Virus record (IMG/VR): IMGVR_UViG_3300009788_000007
Span: 16,601-80,600 of that record
Length of the DNA stretch: 64,000 nucleotides
From: a virus
Strand: one strand, 5' to 3'
Shown: piece after piece, positions 35,623-55,002 of the stretch
How the letters are laid out: each line of letters opens with the position of its first letter
How positions within the stretch are numbered: position 1 is the stretch's first letter
The notes under the pieces: model-generated
What the model saw: only the letters and a program-made list of their open reading frames with translations
Database searches by the model: none
What the model was told of the DNA's origin: nothing
Position numbers and translations under genes: made by a program

Positions 35623-37710
35623 TTAATCTAATTTTGCTTCAGCTGCACGCATCTGTGGAAGGGTAAGCTGCTTAGTTTTATCATTAAAAAAGAACTTATC
35701 GTTCAGCTTCCCGCGCCGAAATAACGCAGACCTTTCTTTGCCTAAAGCCATTTGCTGGGTAGCCTTTGACTGATTGCGTAACCACTGGGGGTATGTTTGA
35801 GTAGCCGGAACCTGCCCTTTAAAGGTATCGCTTGCTGATGCCCTGGTAGATGGTGGTAATTCATTAAGCCCTGGTATGCCTAAATCCTCAAATGATTTTA
35901 TTACAGGTACCGTGGTACTCCTGCAATTATGCACTAATAACCCATTAGCTAAATAAGTCTCGTCATCCACAACAGCTAGATTGTAAACATACCCGTTGTA
36001 GTACTCATCTACATTTGATATGCTTGATGAGGCAAACCAATTAGAGGGGGAGTTATGGCTACGTTCACTAAAAAAGAACTTGAAAAAATTATTAAAAGAG
36101 AGCACTGGAAATTGGGTAAACCTCTTAGACAAATTGAAAGAGAACTTGGGGTAGGTAAAACTGTTGTGCAAAGTAGTTGCAAACGCTTGGGAATTAAGAC
36201 ACGCACCAGAACCGAGAGTATTAGAAGTGGGCACGCTAATGGCCATCTTAAGGGGGCATCTGGTGCTGACCATTGGAGAAAACAGAATATCAAAAAAAGT
36301 AAAAAGCTTGCTAAACAAAGTTCTGCAAGAATGAAGAAGTCTAACCCAATGTTTGATAAAGGCACTAAAGAAAAAATTCTTAAAACACGTGCTGATAATT
36401 ATAGTAAAAATCCAACAAGACATGAAGCGGCACTTATTAAAATATTTCAACGCAGGGGTATAATATTTTGTTTTCAAAAATCTGTCAGGGGTGGTATTGC
36501 TGATTTTACTTTTGGTAAAGTTATCCTTGAGATTGACGGTAGAGGACATGCCAGCAGAAAAACTGCTGATGCTATACGGGATAAGGTCCTCAATACACTT
36601 GGTTGGCATGTTGTGCGAGTTAGTCAAGACAGCCTGCGTGATTACAGACGACACCCCAACGGCCATTGGCATCTTAGTAAACTTTTCAAAGTTTTGAAAA
36701 AGTACATCACCTGTACAAACATCCCTAGCATTAAGCCATCCTCTGGTTTTGGTAAGTATCGGGTGGTCGTCCGTGAGGCTAACACAGGTATTGAAAGACG
36801 TTTTTAGTTTTTTAATTTTACCGTTATGTGATTTAGCCATAACTGTATAAACTTTTTTCCATCTGTTTAAATGTGTCAATACCTCGTCACCTACCTTAAC
36901 ATCTTCAATAGGTGTTAAACCTTTTTTTGTAGTTATTAGAGTACCCCCCACAAGCGCATTAAAATGTTGGGGAGGCCTGGGGCCTTCACCAATTGGGAAT
37001 ACCTCACCATCAAGAGAAGCGCAGATAGGTGTTGTACGGCTGTCTAGTGTTGCGACATATTTTACTTTATCAATCACATCAGAATTTGCTTCGTAGGTTG
37101 CTTCTCTTGCTTTTACAGTTACCTCGGTCACAGATGTGCGCACTAACGTCTGCGCGTTATGGCGAGTACCATTAAAAACACCATCTGAAAAACCTTGTGC
37201 TTTTGTGCCGACAATCCTACGCGTCATATCCGGGATACTGTCACCCTCTGCTAAACCTATACTAAGCCGTCTTGTAATTTCATTGGCGTCCCGGTCTGCA
37301 TACTGATTAAAATATTTTTTAATAGTTTGCCCTCTTACTTTACCATTTACAATTTGCCGCATCACTGCTTGAGAGGGTACAGTTAGTGCTAATGAAATAG
37401 GGGAATTTTTATTAATAATACGTATTTGATTCTCTGCTTCATTATTTGCAATGTCTAAAAGATCACTCTTAAGGTCAACACCTAAACCCTTGTACCCTTC
37501 ACGCAAAAGTATTGTGTATGCTTTTCGCATTCTGATAAATCTATCCGCTGACATATTTCTGCGCAGTCTGCGGTTTATCTCTTTTTCGACATCAGGCAGC
37601 ACATCATCATTAAGCGTGGCTAAAATTTTATTGACTTCTTTATTACGCAGGCGCTCTAAAAAAATAGCATGCTTTATGGCCTCATCTTGTATGTCGTCAT
37701 TTATTGCCAT
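35623..37710 (-). CDS. MuF / SPP1 gp7-like head protein carrying an intein
   Basis: 695 residues as translated: exteins 1-251 and 596-695 plus an intein at 252-595. Spliced length would be 351 residues. The N-extein has TRHNAQTLVRTSVTEVTVKA and YVATLDSRTTPICASLDG; the joined extein would read PPQHFN-CRSTTVPV, the conserved MuF motif (His and Cys). MuF proteins are minor head proteins attached to the portal and are often injected or used for assembly. The gene starts behind a 35-residue basic gene after the portal gene. Confidence 0.88.
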   Translation of the reverse strand: MAINDDIQDEAIKHAIFLERLRNKEVNKILATLNDDVLPDVEKEINRRLRRNMSADRFIRMRKAYTILLREGYKGLGVDLKSDLLDIANNEAENQIRIINKNSPISLALTVPSQAVMRQIVNGKVRGQTIKKYFNQYADRDANEITRRLSIGLAEGDSIPDMTRRIVGTKAQGFSDGVFNGTRHNAQTLVRTSVTEVTVKAREATYEANSDVIDKVKYVATLDSRTTPICASLDGEVFPIGEGPRPPQHFNALVGGTLITTKKGLTPIEDVKVGDEVLTHLNRWKKVYTVMAKSHNGKIKKLKTSFNTCVSLTDDHPILTKTRGWLNARDVCTGDVLFQNFEKFTKMPMAVGVSSVITQAVLTNSHNMPTKCIEDLIPYSISSFSAGMSSTVNLKDNFTKSKISNTTPDRFLKTKYYTPALKYFNKCRFMSCWIFTIIISTCFKNFFFSAFIKHWVRLLHSCRTLFSKLFTFFDILFSPMVSTRCPLKMAISVPTSNTLGSGACLNSQAFATTLHNSFTYPKFSFNLSKRFTQFPVLSFNNFFKFFFSERSHNSPSNWFASSSISNVDEYYNGYVYNLAVVDDETYLANGLLVHNCRSTTVPVIKSFEDLGIPGLNELPPSTRASASDTFKGQVPATQTYPQWLRNQSKATQQMALGKERSALFRRGKLNDKFFFNDKTKQLTLPQMRAAEAKLD
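35926..36957 (-). other. Ala1 intein (344 aa) with antisense-encoded endonuclease gene
   Basis: Block A: ALVGGTLITTKKGLTPIEDV then GDEVLT (residues 1-27), with Ala instead of Cys/Ser at position 1. Block B: SLTDDHPILT (about 60-69) with the T-x-x-H residues. Blocks F and G: YVYNLAVVDDETYLANGLLV then HN, followed by extein Cys+1. Position F4 is Asn, not Cys, so it fits class 2 (KlbA-like) better than class 3. Residues 51-301 are antisense to the endonuclease gene at 36055, and about 200 of them resemble no known intein segment. Without that stretch the splicing domain is about 136 residues, the usual minimal size. Confidence 0.88.
36055..36807 (+). CDS. Vsr/EDxHD-like homing endonuclease, antisense inside the intein
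   Basis: 250 residues, preceded by a strong GAGGGGGAG ribosome site. Residues about 24-46 form a helix-turn-helix (RQIERELGVGKTVVQSSCKR). The nuclease core follows: RHEAALIKIFQRRG, GGIADFTFGKVILEIDGRGH, then DKVLNTLGWHVVRV, typical of Vsr-fold / DUF559-like / EDxHD homing enzymes. It probably cuts intein-free MuF alleles so that the intein is copied in. All neighbouring genes run the other way, so it needs its own promoter. Its 16 Leu codons include no TTA or CTA and its 18 Ser codons no TCA, unlike other genes here. Confidence 0.85.
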   Translation: MATFTKKELEKIIKREHWKLGKPLRQIERELGVGKTVVQSSCKRLGIKTRTRTESIRSGHANGHLKGASGADHWRKQNIKKSKKLAKQSSARMKKSNPMFDKGTKEKILKTRADNYSKNPTRHEAALIKIFQRRGIIFCFQKSVRGGIADFTFGKVILEIDGRGHASRKTADAIRDKVLNTLGWHVVRVSQDSLRDYRRHPNGHWHLSKLFKVLKKYITCTNIPSIKPSSGFGKYRVVVREANTGIERRF

Positions 37711-42892: not shown

Positions 42893-44386
42893 CTAAATAT
42901 CAGTAATCGCAATACCACCTTCTTCAATTGGGAATTTATTGACCACATAGTACCCTACTGCATCGGAAATGTGGGTTAAATGCTTTTCTGACTTTTTATC
43001 AATCTCGCCGCTGCCGCCCTCGACCACAGAAACACCTTCAAAATCTTTTACCACATGTGGTGCGTTATCGGGGTCAACTAAAAACCTTATCTGGCCGTCC
43101 ATAGTTTGTATACGTGAATTCATAGCATTAACACGCACACGCTCTGGTCCGTTTTTATTTGCAACTCTATATTTTAATCGAGTGCCAAACACAGGTTTTA
43201 ATTTCTTGCGTATCAAATCCCAGTCAGACCCGGCTACCTTTGCGCTGCCCTGATTACCCCCTGTAGAATCACCATATAAATATACATCACCTGTATGGTG
43301 TTTCCAGTCTTTGATTATTCGGTCACAGACTATCAATGTATTTGAATGCCTGGGAATATAAACTTCACCTATTACTGCAGTGAATCGTCGGGACACCTTT
43401 GGGTTTTTGCCTTTATACAATTGCTCCTGCATAACTGCACAAACACCTGGAGCGATATTAAAATCAAAGGCTAAGATAATATCTTTGTCTGGGTCGTAAT
43501 CTAAAGATTCAACGGCGTGCACCTCTGAATCAAAATCATAATAGGCCCTGCCCTGGAAATTAATAAAGAGCCCCAGGACCTCCTGCCGATATGACAGCTC
43601 ATCCATGTCAGCTTTCATGGCTTCAATTTCACTCGGGTCTAAAATGTCTTCAGCTGACCAATGGAAGTACCCCCAATTTTTATTACGCTTACCTTTGGCC
43701 TTCATTGCCAAATCGTAGTAATGGTTGCGCCCTTCAGGTACACCGATAAACCAAGCGAACCCAGGGCGGCCTATGGTGGCCAAAGCTGGACGGATATGGT
43801 CTATCCATGCAGTCTTTTTCATGTTGCCGAACTCGTCAAGTATGATGCCATCCAGAGGTGAGCCCTCAATACGCTCCGGTTTGTCCATCCCCATCACCTG
43901 GATTTTAGGACCATGTACCAATGTAATTGTCAAGTCAGATTCTGATATTTTGTCAACACAGGATTTAGGCACCAGCTGTTTCAGGTCTTCCCAGTAGATT
44001 TGCTTAGCCTGGGCTCTGGTGGGCGCTGCAGCCACAAACCACCCGTTAGCGTGCATACAACGCAAGGCTTTGATAATAAGTGCCCTTTTGCAGTATTCCG
44101 TCTTACCAGAGCGCCTGCCGGACGGTACAACGACAAAACGCTTTATTCCCGACACGATGGTGTGGTACAGCGCTAAACGTTCCTTGTGTGGCCTGAGAGG
44201 GTACCAGCGATGCCCCAGGGTGGTGTTTACGGCCTGCTGTATGGCGTCATCGGCTTCCTTGAGGGATGCAGCCTTGATCTCATTCTCACCAATAGGGTCT
44301 TTTTTGGCTTTTTTTGGGTGTTTTAAGGCCTTCTGCCCTTTGACCAAGCGCACCGATTTCTTCAAATTTACTGATTTTGTGGTCAT
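42893..44386 (-). CDS. terL: Terminase large subunit
   Basis: 497 residues. ATPase: Walker A SGRRSGKT (89-96), Walker B GIILDEFG (180-187). Nuclease: AFDFN (Asp308), then YGDSTGG and HISDAVGYYV near the C-terminus, the usual acidic metal ligands. It pumps DNA into the capsid and cuts it. The start overlaps the DUF2493 stop (ATGA). TerS lies 9.8 kb away. The 5' two-thirds are richer in G+C than the surrounding genes. Confidence 0.95.
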   Translation of the reverse strand: MTTKSVNLKKSVRLVKGQKALKHPKKAKKDPIGENEIKAASLKEADDAIQQAVNTTLGHRWYPLRPHKERLALYHTIVSGIKRFVVVPSGRRSGKTEYCKRALIIKALRCMHANGWFVAAAPTRAQAKQIYWEDLKQLVPKSCVDKISESDLTITLVHGPKIQVMGMDKPERIEGSPLDGIILDEFGNMKKTAWIDHIRPALATIGRPGFAWFIGVPEGRNHYYDLAMKAKGKRNKNWGYFHWSAEDILDPSEIEAMKADMDELSYRQEVLGLFINFQGRAYYDFDSEVHAVESLDYDPDKDIILAFDFNIAPGVCAVMQEQLYKGKNPKVSRRFTAVIGEVYIPRHSNTLIVCDRIIKDWKHHTGDVYLYGDSTGGNQGSAKVAGSDWDLIRKKLKPVFGTRLKYRVANKNGPERVRVNAMNSRIQTMDGQIRFLVDPDNAPHVVKDFEGVSVVEGGSGEIDKKSEKHLTHISDAVGYYVVNKFPIEEGGIAITDI

Positions 44387-44736
44387 ACGTACTTAATTAT
44401 AACAACAGCTTTGCAAGATTCCTTGAACAAATCTATAGTGTGCCGGGTGCCGGGGGATTGGCCATCCCAGAAAGCTATGCATTCATCAGCGCGTTCTTCG
44501 ATCTCAGCATTACGGATAAAGCCTGCATCCTTGCCGTACAGGTCCCAGTCAGCCTTTAATTTTTCGTAGGGTATGTGCCAAACTTTTTTAGCCAGCTTCA
44601 CTGCGCAATCATCAGCCCCTTTGGCATCTCCGGTAATAATTTTAATACAGTCCAAATCGTAACGTTGCTTAATCTCATTAATCATAAATCTAGGTCGACA
44701 AAAATCACGACCACCAACTACTGCAAGGTTAAGCAC
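44383..44736 (-). CDS. DUF2493 / SLOG-family nucleotide-binding protein
   Basis: 117 residues from a GTG. LAVVGGRDFCRPRFM, then IITGDAKGADDCAVKLAKK and FIRNAEIEERADECIAFWDG match the DUF2493 (YspA/cpYpsA-related) branch of the SLOG Rossmann fold, which binds nucleotides or their derivatives. Such proteins are linked to nucleotide signalling in other systems; here the exact ligand is unknown. The gene overlaps TerL and the membrane protein upstream. Confidence 0.88.
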   Translation of the reverse strand: MLNLAVVGGRDFCRPRFMINEIKQRYDLDCIKIITGDAKGADDCAVKLAKKVWHIPYEKLKADWDLYGKDAGFIRNAEIEERADECIAFWDGQSPGTRHTIDLFKESCKAVVIIKYV

Positions 44737-52494: not shown

Positions 52495-52620
52495 TCACAA
52501 TGACAGGGGGTAAACTTCATCCCAACAACTATTACAGACATACGTAATAGCCAGATTAATCTGTTTAATTTGTAGTTCACTAAAGCCCTTTTGGGTAAGG
52601 TATTCTTCAAATAGGTTCAT
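52495..52620 (-). CDS. CWD-type small protein, copy 2 (41 aa)
   Basis: GFSELQIKQINLAITYVCNS then CWDEV: helix followed by C-x2-CWD, like the protein at 51290. Starts inside the end of the HD-domain gene. Unknown role. Confidence 0.55.
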   Translation of the reverse strand: MNLFEEYLTQKGFSELQIKQINLAITYVCNSCWDEVYPLSL

Positions 52621-53030
52621 TTGTTTAATATCTCCAATGCACGTTTATATTTATTTCTACGGTCATCATACTTAGGATCGTCAGGCATGGTAGACGTGTT
52701 ATGCTCAATATCTGCAATCTTAATCAAACGGGTTGAACTGTCCGAGGCAACTAACCGTATGTAGTCAAGGTAGTCCATGTTTTTATCTTTACTGAGAAGT
52801 TTAATTCGGAAGATCATACCTTCACTAAACCCATTAGAATATAAAATACCTTCAGTAATTTTAGTATCTTCAAAGATGTCATGGAATACGGCAAGTATCC
52901 TTAATGACTCATCAGTGAATTGGTTAGATACCATGATAGGGTGTACTGATGCAGGTGTAACACCATCCATCCTATATTGTCCCTCATGATATCGTAGACA
53001 TAACCCTAGTGCTTTTTCATATGTGCTCAT
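52617..53030 (-). CDS. RelA/SpoT-like HD hydrolase
   Basis: 137 residues. CLRYHEGQYRMDGVTPASVH then P, FHDIFEDT (HDxxED) and IKIADIEHN match the HD domain of RelA/SpoT and small alarmone hydrolases. The HDxxED pair is the residue set of hydrolase-active members. It could therefore degrade (p)ppGpp-like nucleotides in the host. No synthetase domain is present. Confidence 0.72.
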   Translation of the reverse strand: MSTYEKALGLCLRYHEGQYRMDGVTPASVHPIMVSNQFTDESLRILAVFHDIFEDTKITEGILYSNGFSEGMIFRIKLLSKDKNMDYLDYIRLVASDSSTRLIKIADIEHNTSTMPDDPKYDDRRNKYKRALEILNK

Positions 53031-53131
53031 TGTATTCTTCCTTTTGTTTTCTTTGGTAGTTTGGGTTTGTTGTGCCTACACTCATTACGCTTTACATAAC
53101 GATTACAGGTCTTACACCATTTCATTTTCAT
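53027..53131 (-). CDS. Zinc-finger microprotein (34 aa)
   Basis: CKTC and CRH make a C2CH-type zinc site; very basic tail (KPKLPKKTKGR). ATGA overlap with the HD gene. Likely binds nucleic acid. Confidence 0.55.
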   Translation of the reverse strand: MKMKWCKTCNRYVKRNECRHNKPKLPKKTKGRIQ

Positions 53132-53159
53132 GACTGTCTTTCTTCGTATATGTCTAAAC

Positions 53160-53216
53160 CTATTCACCCTTATCAGGATCTATAGTTATACATAGTACCA
53201 TTTGTTCTTTACCCAT
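53160..53216 (-). CDS. Possible 18-residue peptide
   Basis: A short frame (MGKEQMVLCITIDPDKGE) starts in a TAATG overlap with the upstream gene. Too short for certainty. Confidence 0.25.
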   Translation of the reverse strand: MGKEQMVLCITIDPDKGE

Positions 53217-54202: not shown

Positions 54203-54922
54203 TTATTCTATCTCCTCATCCCAGTCTGGGGGCGGGGCCATAACCTTTGTTATCTCGGCTAAAACTTCCCTTACCGCTGTCGCTTTATCGTCTGTGGTGC
54301 CGCCTGTACCCTGGTTTTCTGGGTAGTATGTTTCTCGTCTTCTGCCTCTAAGCATAAAAGTAGTCAGCTGAGTTTCCCATTTTTTCTTAGTTAAAAAACA
54401 TTTCTCACCTGTTTTCGGGTCTTCAGTAAAAACAGGTTCACCTTCCCATAAGTACAATTCATCAGTGCCATGTATCGCCCTGTGTGTGGCTGACTTTTCA
54501 ATTTTATCTGTGATGCTATCCCTAACATCTTCACAGGCTGTTCTAAATTCTCGGCATCCACGCATGTACCTACGCAGTGTGTCTGCGTGTATAGGTAACT
54601 CAGCACAAGCAATACTTTTCGTGTAGTGTGTTGCGTATAGTTCTAAATATTGTTCAGCCCAATCAGGCCAATGTTTATAAATTTCACCTGTCACATCATG
54701 TGCTGGTGGTCTACCTACTCTTCTAAAAGGGGGGGTACTAATTACAACACTATTCTTATTATTTTTATTTTTAGTAACGGCTTTTTTCTTAGTAGTTTTC
54801 TTTTTCGTACTCTTTTTCTTCTTATACTTATCAGCTGCCGTAGGTTTACGTTTTTCTTTTTTAATAACTAACTTACCAATTATTTTTTTCTTAGTACTTT
54901 TCTTAATATTTTTATCTGTCAT
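54203..54922 (-). CDS. terS: Terminase small subunit
   Basis: 239 residues. The first 60 residues are an extremely Lys-rich tail. The core has an HTH-like part (WAEQYLELYATHYTKSIACA, HADTLRRYMRGCREF) and the C-terminal pattern THRAIHGTDELYLWEG then WETQLTTFMLRGRR of known small terminases. It recognises the packaging site. It lies 9.8 kb upstream of TerL. The ATG at 54922 is used; no clear ribosome site precedes it. Confidence 0.82.
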   Translation of the reverse strand: MTDKNIKKSTKKKIIGKLVIKKEKRKPTAADKYKKKKSTKKKTTKKKAVTKNKNNKNSVVISTPPFRRVGRPPAHDVTGEIYKHWPDWAEQYLELYATHYTKSIACAELPIHADTLRRYMRGCREFRTACEDVRDSITDKIEKSATHRAIHGTDELYLWEGEPVFTEDPKTGEKCFLTKKKWETQLTTFMLRGRRRETYYPENQGTGGTTDDKATAVREVLAEITKVMAPPPDWDEEIE

Positions 54923-55002
54923 ATAAAATATAATACATAATCCCTGCAACTAATACAATCATACCTCTTTACTGCATTTACCCTTAGTCTACAGCATTGC
55001 AC

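Follow-up and report, generated by a model that had tools for sequence, protein, structure and literature searches.

SAH proteins encoded by phages are already known and they are common: 308 phage records have a tblastn match at E≤0.01 to the protein described here, and at least 293 IMG/VR stretches were found with such proteins. In those portions of the literature that were covered, few tests of what phage SAHs cut are described. Aph1 from Bacteroides caccae (PDB 7smg) is a (p)ppApp hydrolase with a compact HD fold of around 140 aa, and prophages carry Aph1 immunity proteins; the gene order Apk2-IapK-Aph1 has been described in prophages (PMC12226406). PaSpo of the Salmonella phage SSU5 is described as removing from tRNA the modification that the toxSAS enzyme FaRel2 installs (PMC11559606), and it was co-expressed for the purification of CapRel-SJ46 (PMC9712102). 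The toxSAS enzymes, or toxic small alarmone synthetases, are themselves described as belonging to antiphage immunity (PMC11559606, PMC9712102). For the SAH of phage Adele an interference with alarmones, either (p)ppGpp or (p)ppApp, was proposed without proof, and its substrate was considered not predictable (PMC12846349). According to PMC9765508, SAHs can be promiscuous. MESH1 and the SAH of Pseudomonas aeruginosa are stand-alone HD hydrolases of around 180 aa, and in RelA, SpoT and Rel the hydrolase domain is accompanied by synthetase and regulatory domains.

The gene that we analyze here lies in the window, by which we mean the whole stretch of 64,000 nucleotides that was studied. It covers positions 16601-80600 of a virus record that is 80.6 kb long and may be a fragment, and the other genes of this record encode a portal protein, a major head protein, a MuF head protein, a large terminase and a DNA polymerase A. 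The elements of the locus are:

52617-53030, minus strand: complete SAH-type HD-domain ORF of 137 aa, PHROG 990, from ATG to stop
52866-52883, minus strand: HDIFED motif, residues 50-55, with the predicted metal ligands H50 and D51 and the predicted catalytic residues E54 and D55
52938-52982, minus strand: base-binding loop and third His, residues 17-31 (GQYRMDGVTPASVHP)
52692-52721, minus strand: second Asp motif KIADIEHNTS, residues 104-113, with K104, D107 and N111
53027-53030, minus strand: ATGA shared by the HD start codon and the stop codon of the 46-aa ORF upstream (53027-53167), read from the sequence
53037-53042, minus strand: AGGAAG, Shine-Dalgarno-like, 6 nt 5' of the HD ATG, read from the sequence
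52617-52620, minus strand: ATGA shared by the HD stop codon and the start codon of the 41-aa ORF downstream (52495-52620), read from the sequence

The ORF that the preliminary description had reported at this position is real: it is complete with 137 aa, contains the HDIFED motif, is coupled by ATGA on both sides and matches the PHROG 990 profile ('metal-dependent phosphohydrolase') over residues 3-136 with E=1.3e-24. A second IMG/VR contig carries an identical copy of the HD gene, and the 7,411 bases of it that were compared match the window to 100%.

The window protein is almost certainly a member of the SAH family. Its best sequence match in the PDB is Aph1 (7smg, E=5.9e-14), with Rel enzymes next at 2e-4 and weaker, and a profile built from 13 phage relatives retrieves 7smg with 3e-47 and the best Rel enzymes with 3e-20 to 1e-18. 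The Pfam HD_4 model did not reach the protein, and the NCBIfam model spoT_relA scored it far under the cut-off. An AlphaFold2 model computed from 58 window and locus sequences has a pLDDT of 97 and a pTM of 0.90. Foldseek ranks Aph1 first for this model, followed by Drosophila and human MESH1, the P. aeruginosa SAH and then Rel/SpoT. The VIA-align Z scores follow a similar order: 21.9 for Aph1 (rmsd 1.5 over 136 residues, 31% identity), 17.2 for the P. aeruginosa SAH, 17.1 for MESH1, 14.7 for SpoT and 12.9 for RelSeq. H30, H50, D51, E54, D55, K104, D107 and N111 are invariant across the 58-sequence alignment. Because of the PHROG 990 and 7smg matches, the 308 phage records, the pLDDT of 97 and the Z score of 21.9, the HD match is more than chance. 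The preliminary description had proposed structure prediction as a check and a different HD subfamily as the alternative. SAH-class folds match the model best, and a 5'-nucleotidase of the YfbR/HDDC2 type, which has the general HD fold in common with the window protein (Z 7-8), is for all practical purposes ruled out, since its Z scores (7.8 for HDDC2, 7.3 for YfbR) lie far below those for Aph1, SAH and MESH1, and sequence profiles retrieve SAH and RSH proteins only. Among the BFVD matches are predicted giant-virus proteins (Clandestinovirus, Terrestrivirus) that are named (p)ppGpp synthetase/hydrolase or HD-domain proteins.

The further claim of the preliminary description, a hydrolase of the RelA/SpoT and MESH1 type, stood as far as the superfamily is concerned, but the nearest relatives are of the Aph1 type. 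The window protein is a stand-alone HD protein of the RelA/SpoT-MESH1-SAH superfamily; at 137 aa it lacks the synthetase and regulatory domains and the long architecture of the RSH enzymes, with which it shares the HD motifs and the Arg at the guanine-stacking column. The spacing between the HD motif and the second Asp (AD) is 56 residues in the window protein and in Aph1, compared to 60 in MESH1 and 66 in RelSeq. For the trees, relatives were gathered from phages, IMG/VR and bacterial genomes, using the best 80 matches in the related-locus scans of IMG/VR and of bacterial genomes, and RSH and SAH references were added. Near copies (>85%) were merged before trees and counts, and the rows of L186, L188, L013, L007 and L225 were left out of both. 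In a tree of 176 rows a branch with support of 100/94 separates RSH/MESH1 (19 rows, joined by the viral row L065) from a compact Aph1-like set that comprises 156 rows, among the matches listed, and includes the window protein. When the base-loop columns were removed, in a tree of 75 of the 176 rows, this split was retained (100/97) and the window protein stayed on the compact side, with the viral rows L198 and L209 as neighbors (97/85). MESH1 is on the other side of the tree; the P. aeruginosa SAH was not part of it. It is to the compact (p)ppApp hydrolases of the Aph1 type, and not to RelA/SpoT or MESH1, that the window protein is most closely related.

Two columns of the base site set the window protein apart from Aph1. 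At the column of RelSeq R44, Arg is present in 19/19 RSH/MESH1 rows, while, among the matches listed, Asp occupies it in 132 of the 140 rows of the Aph1-type set and Arg in 15 of 17 rows of the set that contains the window protein. The commonest residue at the R150 column is Arg in RSH/MESH1, Asp in the Aph1-type set and Ser in the window's set. Taken as a pair, the two columns read Arg/Arg in 16/19 RSH/MESH1 rows, and, among the matches listed, Asp/Asp in 108/140 Aph1-type rows and Arg/Ser in 10/17 rows of the window's set. R20 in the loop GQYRMDGVTPASVHP occupies the R44 column and S113 of KIADIEHNTS the R150 column, where Aph1 has Asp24 and Asp116. MESH1 has Arg at the first column, like the window protein, and Arg at the second, unlike its Ser. 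The Lys of the RelSeq K45 column is Met in the window protein, and the Arg that Aph1 conserves at the K153 column is Pro. With Arg20/Ser113 in place of Asp/Asp the protein therefore fails, as far as aligned residues can tell, the Aph1-type pattern despite its Aph1-like scaffold. This Asp/Asp pattern was defined in our analysis and may differ from the published (p)ppApp-hydrolase signature, which is reportedly that of a PNAS study from 2023. Compact rows derived from genomes have Asp in 71 of 73 cases and Arg in none (0/73), among the matches listed. The Arg-loop compact variety thus appears mostly in viruses, a picture that is biased because the Arg-type alignment was scanned against viruses only. 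L065, which groups with RSH/MESH1 outside the compact clade, is an Arg-type viral row as well. In the first tree the Arg-type rows fall between RSH/MESH1 and the Asp clade; the loop-free tree does not resolve how the Arg-type and Asp-type rows branch within the compact clade, and since this order collapses without the loop columns we claim no ancestral state. A third loop type occurs in Vibrio, Caulobacter and Pakpunavirus phages (L005, L009, L240, L243), where GQMYG, GQRYGD or GQKYA/GQKYG precedes PY and the Arg/Asp position is lost or replaced.

The Aph1-like scaffold could suggest a (p)ppApp-specific immunity protein of the Aph1 type that protects against a MuF-Apk2 toxin of the same phage. 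The window does encode a MuF head-morphogenesis protein (35623-37710, minus strand, 695 aa), and the order Apk2-IapK-Aph1 reported for prophages (PMC12226406) is seen in phage relatives: phages of Streptococcus and Aggregatibacter carry a small gene and then the HD gene after a gene for a MuF (or minor head) protein. However, the HD gene of the window phage lies 15 kb from the MuF gene, Arg and Ser stand at the two columns where the Aph1 clade has Asp, and the MuF protein has intein/Hint matches instead, with an intein/Hint-like insert at around residues 253-610. Its C-terminal part matches phrog_14819. A profile search of the record with PF04607 gave no match, which is a weak test because the same model also missed Streptococcus phage records that bear Apk2. 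It was replaced by a protein search with the Apk2 toxin domain, in which the controls were positive and the 80.6-kb record, possibly a fragment, had no match. The same search found the Apk2 domain in none of 15 Arg-type records, the window included, and in 9 of 31 Asp-type viral records (5/6 in one set, 4/25 in another); for L018, L049 and L094 the Asp type was read in the sequence itself or in one identical to it rather than in the merged alignment. The difference between 9/31 and 0/15 gives p=0.021 in Fisher's test for records that are possibly fragments and not independent, and without two records of already known Apk2-linked types it becomes 7/29 versus 0/15 (p=0.077). We regard an immunity function against a toxin of the same phage as very improbable, and the best reading is that the HD gene is an orphan accessory gene.

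As for the substrate, the preliminary description had suggested that a stand-alone hydrolase could lower host alarmone levels, and for (p)ppGpp this is possible. In its strict form, a (p)ppGpp hydrolase that reduces the stringent-response alarmone of the host during infection, we consider the proposal unlikely. The fold of the window protein is that of the MESH1/SpoT class, a comparable role has been put forward, without proof, for the SAH of phage Adele (PMC12846349), and the Arg of the guanine-stacking type is kept; in SpoT the Arg equivalent to R20 is described as stacking the guanine, and hydrolysis is abolished when it is substituted (PMC9974481). Against this, the nearest relative of solved structure hydrolyzes (p)ppApp, and a Tyr that is essential in SpoT is missing.

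PaSpo offers a different comparison. Like the window protein, it is a phage SAH of PHROG 990 with the Arg/Ser pair; the pneumococcal phage relative is assigned to the same PHROG. PaSpo differs in its length of 213 aa (137 in the window protein) and its spacing of 64 residues (56), it keeps the Tyr (DYINHP), and among solved structures it comes closest to RSH and Lmo0812/MESH1-type proteins, not to Aph1. Since the second column varies among phage proteins (R, K, P, K, T, E, W, T and S in nine further proteins from phage records) and the two proteins are 27% identical over 106 positions, the shared Arg/Ser pair is suggestive only. PaSpo-like SAH proteins are also carried by jumbo phages (PhiKZ-like and others; L241), several of them annotated as hypothetical. 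The SAH of an unverified 'Listeria phage' record (OR846721, L242) matches Listeria Lmo0812 as printed for PDB 4yf1, so this record may hold bacterial DNA.

The strongest evidence against an ordinary activity of the window protein is the replacement of the Tyr that SpoT requires. The column of RelSeq Y50 and SpoT Y51 is occupied by Tyr in 171/176 rows, among the matches listed, and the RSH rows keep it. In Aph1 this residue is Tyr30; here it is Ala27, encoded by GCA. Substitution of Y51, E82, D83 or N147 is reported to inactivate the SpoT hydrolase (PMC9974481). Hydrolase activity is not assured, because a residue that is essential in SpoT is Ala here, and the protein may be altered or inactive. 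A repurposed or inactive HD protein, which with metal site and pocket intact would bind or sequester a nucleotide or use a different substrate, is supported by the Ala, by the agreement of the codon in both contigs and by a homologue in the Manatee Spring phage MW202657, which has Leu at the Tyr position together with an HDAVEE motif; the terminase of this phage is 45-46% identical to that of the window phage. Yet the protein retains all metal ligands as well as E54/D55, K104 and N111, as would be expected under continuing selection for catalysis, and we consider a loss or change of function doubtful. A compensation of Ala27 by Tyr14 was considered; in L005 the Tyr14 column holds Trp, but the loop Tyr is kept. 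L007, whose row was left out of the trees and counts, has Leu at the Tyr position. The homologue of Vibrio phage IBT_VpB-34 (L013:2001-2465) has SLYTVYL where a metal-ligand His is expected and is possibly another altered HD protein.

Our preferred reading, to which we assign a probability of about 0.5, is that the window protein is a phage-borne, compact, Aph1-like stand-alone SAH with an Arg loop that would act as a 3'-pyrophosphohydrolase on guanosine alarmones and/or toxSAS products. That it hydrolyzes a 3'-pyrophosphate to some extent is somewhat more probable than this reading as a whole and, given activity, a use against host alarmone or toxSAS signaling would be likely. Next to the family, fold and residue pattern observed, we infer activity, substrate and role as follows. 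A divalent metal (Mn2+) would most likely be bound by H30, H50, D51 and D107, and E54 and D55 would most likely remove the 3'-pyrophosphate from a purine ribonucleotide end. Likely substrates would be (p)ppGpp and/or the products of toxic small alarmone synthetases, that is pyrophosphorylated tRNA 3' ends and (p)ppApp. In the infected host, stress signals or defense signals of the toxSAS type would be undone by the window protein. In a wider version, a largely phage-borne Arg/Ser compact subfamily, distinct from the toxin-linked Aph1 enzymes, would reverse toxSAS immunity or host alarmones, and its Tyr-less member in the window would have an altered catalytic geometry or sequester the signal instead of cleaving it; we hold this version to be improbable. 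The SAH kind itself is known, and what appears new is the Arg-type compact viral group and an SAH without the Tyr: in the open-licence literature, within the parts of the papers covered, neither is described. The two active-site columns sort the phage SAHs, with the forecast that Asp-type proteins are toxin-linked or (p)ppApp enzymes and that Arg-type proteins are orphans that act on guanosine or toxSAS products. With the window protein, nature offers a case for testing whether the 'essential' Tyr is dispensable.

PADLOC gave no match, and no match to the HD protein lies in the first 50 kb of phage MW202621, whose terminase is the closest. The terminase genes of the window lie around 10 kb apart on the minus strand (large subunit at 42893-44386, putative small subunit at 54203-54949), and the interval holds the HD gene together with many small ORFs. 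Rhodococcus phage Weasels2 and Vibrio phage IBT_VpB-34 likewise have their HD gene near the large terminase. Immediately next to the large terminase gene of the window, at 44383-44736 (minus strand), a small SLOG-like protein is encoded that is related to YspA/cpYpsA and matches phrog_289 ('GTP-binding domain'); it is possibly a nucleotide-binding protein. When Arg-type phages were compared with the window for synteny, this SLOG-like ORF was the only match beyond the HD gene (32% identity, L052), and in L052 it lies near the HD gene of that locus.
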